DNA from: Desulfarculus sp.
GTDB lineage: Bacteria; Desulfobacterota; Desulfarculia; Desulfarculales; Desulfarculaceae
Length of the DNA stretch: 64,000 bases
Reading direction: 5' to 3'
Assembly (NCBI GenBank): GCA_016218705.1
Contig: JACRDC010000075.1
Location: 1 to 64,000 of the forward strand
Numbering within the stretch: the stretch's first letter is position 1; each line of letters starts with the position of its first letter. The notes below the pieces were generated by a model, which had not been told where the DNA came from, ran no database searches, and was given only the letters and a program-made list of their open reading frames with translations. A program made the position numbers and the translations under genes. Below, one piece after another: positions 1 through 52,015 of the stretch.

Positions 1-161
1 ATCGGCCGGTCAAAAACGTGGTTTTGCCCGTCCTCCCTGGCGCTTTCGCGCCCGGCGGGCCATTCCCCGGGGTCCCCAAGCAAACGCAGTTTGCTTGGGG
101 TGGATCCATGGCCCGCATACCAAGTTGCGATCAAACTACTCTTTTGATCGCAACTTGGTAT
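1..161. repeat. Modular palindromic hairpin cluster, copy 1 (truncated by window start)
   Basis: Perfect 19-bp stem 117-135/143-161 (ataccaagttgcgatcaaa...tttgatcgcaacttggtat); 9-bp stem gcgggccat 55-63/atggcccgc 108-116 enclosing a perfect 12-bp hairpin 74-85/89-100. The whole block is the reverse complement of the cluster at 51854-52015 apart from local changes. Confidence 0.85.
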
Positions 162-3376: not shown

Positions 3377-3608
3377 GTCCTCTACTCCTTGCCGACATCC
3401 CCTAACACACCGGCCACGGCCAGCAAATGGGCCTGGCCTGACTTGAGGCCATGCTAGCACAGGGGCCGGAAGGCGGCAACCGGCCCAGGGGCGGGGCTGG
3501 GCGGTGGCCTCCGGCAGAAGGCCATTGACAGCCGCCCGTGTGCCAGAGTAAGACTTACCCCGATGAGAGGGCCTTCGCCGCGCCGAGGGCCTGATCTGTC
3601 CAAATATT

Positions 3609-3697
3609 GCTGGGGGAGCTGGCAACGGCTGAGAGTACGCCCGATGGTCGGGCGTTGACCCCTCGAACCTGTTGGGTAATTCCAACGCAGGGAAGCA
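3609..3697 (+). promoter_or_regulatory. TPP riboswitch (THI element)
   Basis: ctgggggagc...CTGAGAgtac...gaccccTCGAACCTGttgGGTAATtCCaaCGcAGGGAagc matches the thi-box core; directly upstream of thi4. Confidence 0.95.
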
Positions 3698-3782
3698 TTC
3701 GTCAGGCCCCCTAGGGGGCTGGGGCCGGTTTCCCATGCGGAGGCCGGCCCCGTTGCTTACAGGGCCGGCGGAAAGGCATGTC

Positions 3783-4619: not shown

Positions 4620-4697
4620 GTCTGGGGACAGGATCAGGGAAGGGAAGATAACTCATCAAAGCAGGCAGTTGGGTGTGCACAAAATCTAGTGACGGCT

Positions 4698-4724
4698 GTC
4701 ATTGCGAGCGAAGCGAAGCAATCT
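4698..4724 (+). repeat. REP-like GTCATTGCGAGCGAAGCGAAGCAATCT element
   Basis: Same core as the paired units at 21088-21194; resembles a short interspersed repeat seen in many bacteria. Confidence 0.8.
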
Positions 4725-4766
4725 CCCGCTTCGTTCTTTTTTTTAGGACAACGCGAAATTAAAGAT

Positions 4767-18032: not shown

Positions 18033-18152
18033 GCGGGCCATGGACGGCCCGCCCGAAATCAGGCCAAATGATAATTTGGCCTGATTTAGAAAGCTTGCCA
18101 AAATTTACTTTTGGCAAGCGCCAAGAGGAGAAAGCCATGGATGGCTTTCTCC
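18033..18152. repeat. Modular palindromic hairpin cluster, copy 3
   Basis: Four consecutive hairpins: gcgggcc-atggac-ggcccgc (18033-18052), aaatcaggccaaat-gata-atttggcctgattt (18056-18087), gcttgccaaaa-tttac-ttttggcaagc (18093-18119), ggagaaagcca-tgga-tggctttctcc (18127-18152). Confidence 0.85.
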
Positions 18153-18264
18153 GACACACACCTAGAGAGGCCGGCGGGGCGGACGGATTTGCGGGTGGGG
18201 GCTTTTCTGCTAGAGTAGCCGTACTCACGCCAGCATCAACGCATCTTCAAGGAGATCATGGGCC

Positions 18265-19308
18265 ATGACCGGCAAGGACCAGTACCGCGAGGCCGGGGTA
18301 GATATCGAGAAGGGCAACCAATTCGTCAAGAACATCAGCCAGATGGTGCGCTCGACCCACAATTCCTCGGTGCTGACCGACCTGGGCGGCTTCTCGGGCC
18401 TGGTGGCCCTGAACACCGAGCGCTACCCCCAGCCGGTGCTGGTCAGCTCCACCGACGGCGTGGGCACCAAGCTCAAGATCGCCTTTCTGATGGACAAGCA
18501 CGACACCGTGGGCATTGACCTGGTGGCCATGTGCGTCAACGACATCGTGGTCTGCGGGGCGCGGCCCCTGTTCATGCTGGACTACATCTCCACCGGCGAG
18601 CTGCGCCTGGGCCAGGCCGAACAGATCGTGGCCGGCATCGTGGAGGGCTGCCGCCAGGCCAAATGCGCCCTCATCGGCGGAGAGACGGCGGAGATGCCCG
18701 GCTTCTACCCTCCCGGGGAATATGACCTGGCCGGGTTCGCGGTGGGCGTGGTGGACCGCAACGAGATCATGGGCGGCTCGGGCATGCACGCCGGCTGCGC
18801 CGTGGTGGGCCTGGCCAGCAGCGGCCTGCACAGCAACGGCTACTCCCTGGTGCGGCGCATCTGCTTCGACCAACTGGGGCTGACCGTGGACTCCCAGGTG
18901 GACGACCTGGGCGGCCCCTTGGGGCCGGTGCTGCTCACCCCCACCAAGATATACACCGAGGCCATCTTGAACCTGCGGCGCAACTTCAGCCTGCACGCCG
19001 TGGCCCATATCACCGGCGGCGGCATCGTGGAGAACCTGCCCCGGGTGCTGCCGGCCTCGCTCAAGGCCGTGGTCCGGCGGGGCTCCTGGCCGGTGCCGCC
19101 CATCTTCCACTTCCTGCGGCAGGCCGCCAAGCTGGACGAGATGGAGATGCTGCGCACCTTCAACTCAGGGCTGGGCATGATGGTGGTGGTGCCGGCCGGC
19201 CAGGCCAGCGAGGTCATCCAGCGCCTGGAGGCCATGGGCCACCCCTCCTACCTGGTGGGCGAGATGGCCAAGCGCAAGGACAATCAGCCGGCGGTGGAGT
19301 TCATTTGA
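18265..19308 (+). CDS. purM: Phosphoribosylformylglycinamidine cyclo-ligase
   Basis: YREAGVDIEKGNQFVKNIS, VSSTDGVGTKLKIAF, GIDLVAMCVNDIVVCGARPLFMLDYI, GGETAEMPGFY. Confidence 0.96.
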   Translation: MTGKDQYREAGVDIEKGNQFVKNISQMVRSTHNSSVLTDLGGFSGLVALNTERYPQPVLVSSTDGVGTKLKIAFLMDKHDTVGIDLVAMCVNDIVVCGARPLFMLDYISTGELRLGQAEQIVAGIVEGCRQAKCALIGGETAEMPGFYPPGEYDLAGFAVGVVDRNEIMGGSGMHAGCAVVGLASSGLHSNGYSLVRRICFDQLGLTVDSQVDDLGGPLGPVLLTPTKIYTEAILNLRRNFSLHAVAHITGGGIVENLPRVLPASLKAVVRRGSWPVPPIFHFLRQAAKLDEMEMLRTFNSGLGMMVVVPAGQASEVIQRLEAMGHPSYLVGEMAKRKDNQPAVEFI

Positions 19309-19349: not shown

Positions 19350-19424
19350 CCGGGGTCCCCAAGCAAACGCAGTTTGCTTGGGGTGCTCTTCCGGGGCCCC
19401 CAAAAAAGCGCGGTTTTTTTGGGG
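19350..19424. repeat. Modular palindromic hairpin cluster, copy 4 (two paralogous hairpins)
   Basis: ccggggtccccaagcaaacgcagtttgcttgggg (identical to 67-100) followed by ccggggcccccaaaaaagcgcggtttttttgggg; same length, compensated stem changes. Confidence 0.85.
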
Positions 19425-19429
19425 CGGGC

Positions 19430-19873
19430 ATGATCCTGGTCTCGGCCTGCCTGCTGGGCCAAGCCACCCGCTACGACGGCCGGGTGCTGGCCGTGCCGTC
19501 CTGGCTGGCCCAATTGCCCTCAAATGACGTGCTGGCCCTGTGCCCGGAGGTGCTGGGCGGGCTGACCGTGCCCCGGCCGCCGGCGCGCATCGTGGATGCC
19601 AACCCTGGCCGCGAGGGCCTGGACGTGCTGGCCGGACGCGCCCGGGTGCTGACCATGGAGGGCCTGGACGTAAGCGCCGCCTTCATCGCCGGCGCCCAGG
19701 CGGTGCTGGAACGCGCACTGGCCGCTGGCGTCACCCGGGCCTATCTCAAGGACCGCTCGCCCTCTTGCGCTCATGACCCCCTGGGGCGCAACCCCCGGCC
19801 CGGCCCGGCCCAGGGGGTGCTCACGGCCCTGCTCTTGGCCCGGGGCATGGAGGTGGTGGAGGTCCGCGTCTAG
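19430..19873 (+). CDS. DUF523 family protein
   Basis: MILVSACLLGQATRYDG..., CPEVLGGLTVPRPPARI, AYLKDRSPSC. Confidence 0.85.
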   Translation: MILVSACLLGQATRYDGRVLAVPSWLAQLPSNDVLALCPEVLGGLTVPRPPARIVDANPGREGLDVLAGRARVLTMEGLDVSAAFIAGAQAVLERALAAGVTRAYLKDRSPSCAHDPLGRNPRPGPAQGVLTALLLARGMEVVEVRV

Positions 19874-19976
19874 GGGTGTGCCGGAGAAAGCCATCCCTTG
19901 CCCGCCATCCCGCATTGACAGCCGGCCCGGCCAGCGGTACAAGCAATCCAGATTATCCCAGCCCCACGGGAGCCTT

Positions 19977-21087: not shown

Positions 21088-21194
21088 GTCATTGCGAGGA
21101 GCGAAGCGACGTGGCAATCTTCCGTTTCGTTCTTATGCGCAACCACATGAGGAAAGAGCGAAACGGAAGATTGCTTCGCGGCGCTCGCAATGAC
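21088..21194. repeat. Inverted pair of gtcattgcgag-type REP-like elements
   Basis: gtcattgcgaggagcgaagcgacgtggcaatct (21088-21120) and inverted agattgcttcgcggcgctcgcaatgac (21168-21194); internal tccgtttcg/cgaaacgga arms. Confidence 0.85.
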
Positions 21195-21291
21195 GGCTTT
21201 TTTCTGATTGCATGATGCGAACCAGGCTGGTGATCTTGGGCCAAGCCAGCTCACACATAGTTTGAACTTTATTGGATGATAAGGACCAAAC

Positions 21292-51833: not shown

Positions 51834-51853
51834 ACAACCTGGAGCATCGTCTA

Positions 51854-52015
51854 ATACCAAGTTGCGATCGAACGAGTAGTTTGATCGCAACTTGGTATGC
51901 GGGCCATGGATGGCCCGCCGGGCGCGTTAACGCCCGGGAGGCCGGGCAAAAACACTCTTTTGTCCGGCCGATCAGCAATCAAAGCCAGGGATGGCTTTGA
52001 TTGCATATTGGTATA
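51854..52015. repeat. Modular palindromic hairpin cluster, copy 2 (inverted mosaic relative of 1-161)
   Basis: Hairpins at 51854-51898, 51899-51918 (gcgggcca-tgga-tggcccgc), 51918-51937 (ccgggcg-cgttaa-cgcccgg), 51940-51969 (ggccgggcaaaa-acactc-ttttgtccggcc), 51975-52004 (gcaatcaaagcca-ggga-tggctttgattgc). Confidence 0.88.

Follow-up and report, generated by a model that had tools for sequence, protein, structure and literature searches.

The window analysed here, a stretch of 64,000 nt that begins at base 1 of contig C41 in the genome under study (G000), opens directly on a repeat. Positions 1–160 of the forward strand hold a copy (copy 1) of a composite of five hairpins, in which modules b, c, d and e are present and module a has been lost to the contig end. 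The arms of its host palindrome, module d, lie at 55–63 (GCGGGCCAT) and 108–116 (ATGGCCCGC) on the forward strand with 44 nt between them, and are followed by the module e hairpin (TACCAAGTTGCGATCAAA...TTTGATCGCAACTTGGTA, 118–160, forward strand), which is recognised from its fold and also forms the right end of copy 2. The segment inserted between the arms, TCC-CCGGGGTCCCC...GGGGTGG-ATCC (64–107, forward strand), is delimited by comparison with the empty form GGCC-ATCC-ATGGCC at 51899–51918 and 22 other exact sites; its edges form a direct repeat, ATTCC/ATCC, the left copy of which starts inside the arm at position 62. Within this segment lies a 37-nt element, here termed P, of the AAGCAAAC subtype (67–103, forward strand; CCGGGGTCCCC-stem-GCA-stem-GGGGTGG), whose inner hairpin, CCCCAAGCAAAC-GCA-GTTTGCTTGGGG (74–100), has a 12-bp stem. 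The 62-nt nested structure as a whole has a fold z score of −4.7 against dinucleotide shuffles, none of 200 of which was equally stable.

Copy 2 (51854–52014) lies on the reverse strand with modules a to e complete and d empty, the uninterrupted palindrome GCGGGCCATCCATGGCCCGC occupying 51899–51918 on that strand; copy 1 corresponds to 51848–51972 with inverted-repeat matches of 94% and 86%. The spacer orthologous to that of copy 2 is much shorter in the related genomes G003 and G001. Adjoining copy 2, the segment at about 52051–52421 matches many places in the congener G003 and is therefore probably another dispersed repeat. The third site is a tandem pair of stand-alone P elements on the forward strand, one of the AAGCAAAC subtype (19350–19386) and one of the AAAAAAGC subtype (19391–19427), placed between a 347-aa ORF that ends at 19308 and an ORF that starts at 19430; the orthologous spacers, about 50 bp in G003 and about 14 bp in G002, lack the pair. 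All three sites are intergenic, between ORFs. The first-pass annotation had described the arms, their spacing, the inner hairpin and the uninterrupted form in copy 2 just as we find them, and the independent inner hairpin that it reported at 19356–19382 exists, although its true position is 19357–19383, one base away.

Since the window starts at contig base 1, copy 1 sits at the extreme end of contig C41, and taken alone it is for that reason open to doubt as a product of assembly. Many other contigs likewise end in the composite or in P, and the nested form could on that ground be taken for a chimera of a short-read draft genome. The filled form is nevertheless found in contig interiors as well (for example L016, L024, L093, L105, L114 and L119), in four congeneric genomes, with P stems specific to the species and with orthologous flanks, and we give an assembly artefact a negligible probability. 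A chance origin was ruled out by reversed-pattern controls and shuffled folds.

Genome text was examined in stretches around pattern matches. The exact inner hairpin occurs 36 times genome-wide, with no match for the reversed control. A strict pattern for P (CCGGGGTCCCCN{10,24}GGGGTGG, the element reading CCGGGGTCCCC-stem-GGGGTGG over 37 nt) matched 76 times in the own genome, 32 times in G003, 27 times in G002, three times in G001 and 11 times in G006, which belongs to another genus; a control pattern had no match in these five genomes, and beyond them two isolated matches were the only ones among 60 relatives. Almost all copies of P have the ends CCGGGGT and TGG, and its arrays run head-to-tail. 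Its stems are species-specific (AGCCAAC in G002; AAAAATC or AAAATGC in G006) and they covary: 97.6% of cells are paired, both sides have changed in 56 cells compared with 16 in shuffles, and the covariation score of 0.330, against 0.141, was reached by none of 500 shuffles.

The host arms form part of a composite of about 160 bp, with ends ATACCAA...TTGGTAT, whose five hairpins are modules a (CAATCAAAGCCATCCATGGCTTTGATTG), b (GCCGGGCAAAANCGTGGTTTTGCCCGGC), c (CCCGGGCGCTTTCGCGCCCG), d and e (ATACCAAGTTGCGATCAAA...TTTGATCGCAACTTGGTAT). The own genome contains at least 40 copies homologous to copy 1, some whole and some partial, and the exact empty d palindrome was found at 23 sites genome-wide (no match for the reversed control pattern). 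The composite is itself present or absent at orthologous places between species; in these whole-composite comparisons site C aligned poorly and serves for presence or absence only. In G010, the empty d palindrome belongs to a 119-bp unit of which at least four copies stand in tandem (L148:1503–1875).

Most of the P sites that we found lie in the apexes or loops of other palindromes. Flanks scored as complementary over at least 7 bp at 64 of 102 distinct sites in five genomes, compared with 6.3% of random positions; the 102 sites are not independent because most belong to the one composite family, and the distinct classes of host are more telling than the site count. The d apex has been filled with an ATTCC/ATCC junction by AAGCAAAC P, with a CCA/TTCT junction by AAAAAAGC P, in G002 by a P with a stem of its own, often in the tandem form ATCC[P]ATCC[P]ATCC, and in G001 too. 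The loop of module b holds P on the opposite strand, and at five loci (L072, L097, L108, L122 and L126) b and d are both filled. The H2 repeat (GGAGAAAGCCATCCATGGCTTTCTCC), a 3′-end repeat unrelated to d, has its apex filled in two copies and unfilled in 13 in the own genome, with three filled copies in G003. P also lies at the centre of BIME-like repeats (L095, L213), in a palindrome at L101 and in a G003 palindrome represented by L205 and L226. Several distinct insertions into apexes are thus on record, and the preference for loops that the first-pass annotation had asked for was found, within limits: the loop is not always TGGA, and roughly 18 P sites are stand-alone arrays near gene ends, outside loops.

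Two of these kinds of host repeat also occur in the window: H2 at 18134–18166 and 19869–19901, and a BIME-like inverted repeat (CATTGCGAG...GAAGCAATC), to which the repeats in L095 and L213 are related, at 4695–4739 and 21153–21197. The left arm of H2 has 15 matches in the genome, and the repeat usually follows directly on a CTAGG stop-like motif at gene ends.

The target duplication raised in the first-pass annotation is present at many sites and is imperfect or unclear at others. At d (empty GGCC-ATCC-ATGG) and at H2 (empty AAGCC-ATCC-ATGG), P usually stands between two ATCC, with one-base variants, and at module b (empty AAAACCACG) L009 and L217 show AAC or AACC, the other sites an AGTC-like repeat. 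No clear direct repeat was seen at the BIME-like site or in the CCA/TTCT class of d, where it is imperfect. As regards a comparison with MITEs, P is bordered by ATCC or AAC(C) at many sites, and no transposase partner was found.

Filled and empty forms are paired well beyond the two window copies on which the first-pass annotation had based its proposal: within the genome, at H2, and between species at one composite with the same flanking genes, which is empty in G000 (C9, L001) and filled in the congener G001 (C137, L238). The empty d palindrome also occurs in the sister genera G006, G010 and G011, the last two of which contain no P; filling is therefore derived, and on these comparisons empty d is most likely the ancestral state. 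The opposite polarity, a filled ancestor from which P was precisely deleted, could appeal to the intermixing of filled and empty forms on a tree of 93 composite flanks. It is at odds not only with the sister genera but also with an H2 apex unfilled in 13 of 15 copies and with the several P subtypes and junctions at the same apex, and we regard it as very improbable.

On the flank tree, filled classes are scattered among empty ones much as shuffled labels would be (15 changes for 15 rows, and nine for nine), and well-supported branches force at least four changes in every filled class of G000; with such short sequences, support is weak and resolution poor. With that weak support, the tree does not favour one founding insertion whose composite was then copied cleanly. 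As the two states are interspersed on it, one cannot tell for a given copy whether P was inserted anew or arrived by later exchange. Exchange between copies is the likeliest cause of the scatter; hybrid junctions occur at L123 and L079/L130, and recombinant composites with P at the joint at L028 and L098 (b-left + P + d-right) and L206 (a-left + P + d-right). Recombination among the products of a few events probably accounts for many of the filled copies, and with such exchange the count of filled copies is not a count of insertions. The idea that a mobile palindrome entered the loop of another, leaving empty and filled sites, is therefore largely supported, with the qualification that P also lies outside loops and that the filled copies are not all separate insertions.

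We propose that the inner hairpin of copy 1 belongs to a mobile palindrome of REP-like kind, about 37 nt long and dispersed in a Desulfarculus-related genus, and that the outer one represents module d of a larger hairpin composite, likewise dispersed. P would insert preferentially into the apexes of existing palindromes, probably when these are single-stranded or extruded as hairpins, often with the target repeated on either side as a short direct repeat (ATCC; AAC/AACC), the trace to be expected of a trans-acting transposase that makes a staggered cut. Recombination or gene conversion would then have multiplied the filled composites and exchanged them among the copies. We hold this model as a whole with moderate confidence; the transposase and the single-stranded target are putative, and gene conversion is a candidate route of spread.

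A staggered cut by a candidate trans-acting enzyme fits the direct repeats best, and template switching at hairpins is a serious rival. P might also reach hairpin tips with no transposase at all, through replication slippage or template switching at the hairpins or through ectopic recombination of palindromes, the direct repeats then being microhomologies. The recombinant composites with P at the joint, the hybrid junctions, the intermixing on the flank tree and the failure to find a P-linked transposase are all consistent with such an origin. It is harder to reconcile with the same ATCC repeat in two unrelated host palindromes and in several species, with the amplification of P to dozens of copies with conserved ends, and with the gain of stand-alone P where congeners have no palindrome; we judge it possible but rather doubtful. 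With similar reserve we would entertain a stricter view of transposition, in which P targets structure and not sequence: a putative dedicated enzyme would recognise hairpin apexes and insert P with a short duplication, so that nested palindromes would be built stepwise.

In size and copy number, in being palindromic and intergenic and in forming tandem arrays, P resembles REPs, and it might be a REP moved by a RAYT (Y1 HUH) transposase since lost from the own genome. Y1 transposase genes are present in G003, G005 and G006. However, no P lies within the flanks examined of the Y1 transposase genes in G003, G005, G006 and G008, the RAYT-like genes in G003 and G005 are bordered by a different palindrome (GGACAAC-TTG-TTGTCC), the one PF01797 match in the own genome is a decayed remnant that has no P next to it, and P has no GTAG tag. 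The direct repeats of P are likewise unexpected, as Y1 transposases are not known to produce them. We consider this origin unlikely, and RAYT was rejected as the mover of P because the genes in relatives carry other palindromes. The genus does contain a separate REP family, represented by the Y1 transposase genes at L254:780–1511 and L256, which are bordered by GGGTGGCC-NGGACAAC-TTG-TTGTCC palindromes.

Most small bacterial palindromic repeats are known as static copies only. With empty, filled and doubly filled targets that are orthologous in relatives, one can read directly which target is used, what is duplicated and in which direction the change runs, and so obtain a natural record of how a tiny bacterial repeat spreads, in an uncultured relative of sulfate reducers. 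If hairpin tips are truly targeted, this would be natural evidence for movement on single-stranded or extruded DNA, and would account for the building of complex mosaic palindromes. The cyanobacterial small dispersed repeats described by Elhai in 2008 are reportedly very small, mobile and sometimes nested in other repeats.

Nesting of REPs in palindromes has already been reported: REPs are inserted within other palindromes in A. variabilis (GTAG-15), T. roseum (GTAG-23, with hundreds of target copies in the genome) and H. neapolitanus (CGTC-1) (PMC3733652). These GTAG- and CGTC-tagged REPs resemble P in being short (20–40 bp), high-copy, intergenic palindromes, single or arrayed, whereas P occupies several unrelated hosts, is present at one orthologous site in one species and absent from it in another, is bordered by repeated target letters and fills some host copies twice. 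With 37 nt and 76 strict matches, P falls within the size and copy number of REPs (20–40 bp, tens of copies), and it is extragenic at all three window sites. It differs from them by an absent tag and an absent linked RAYT: no GTAG or CGTC tetranucleotide was found at its ends, and no RAYT gene flanked by P, as in a REPtron, was found in the own genome, G003, G005, G006 or G008. For these two reasons we do not file P as a GTAG/CGTC REP, and its head-to-tail arrays are not REPINs, in which two inverted REPs form a unit. Palindromic repeats are also specific targets for REP-targeting insertion sequences such as IS1397, ISKpn1 and IS621 (PMC1525189); these are complete elements that encode a transposase of their own, whereas P is gene-less. 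Mobile GC clusters of yeast mitochondria (PMC4478555) and repetitive hairpin elements of sponge mitochondria (PMC2800124) are, like P, short mobile palindromes with a constrained stem, changes in copy number and units that are merged and shuffled, but they are organellar, and we claim no kinship in sequence. An Rfam search found no family covering the element; elsewhere in the window, a TPP riboswitch lies at 3602–3710, above the Rfam gathering score.
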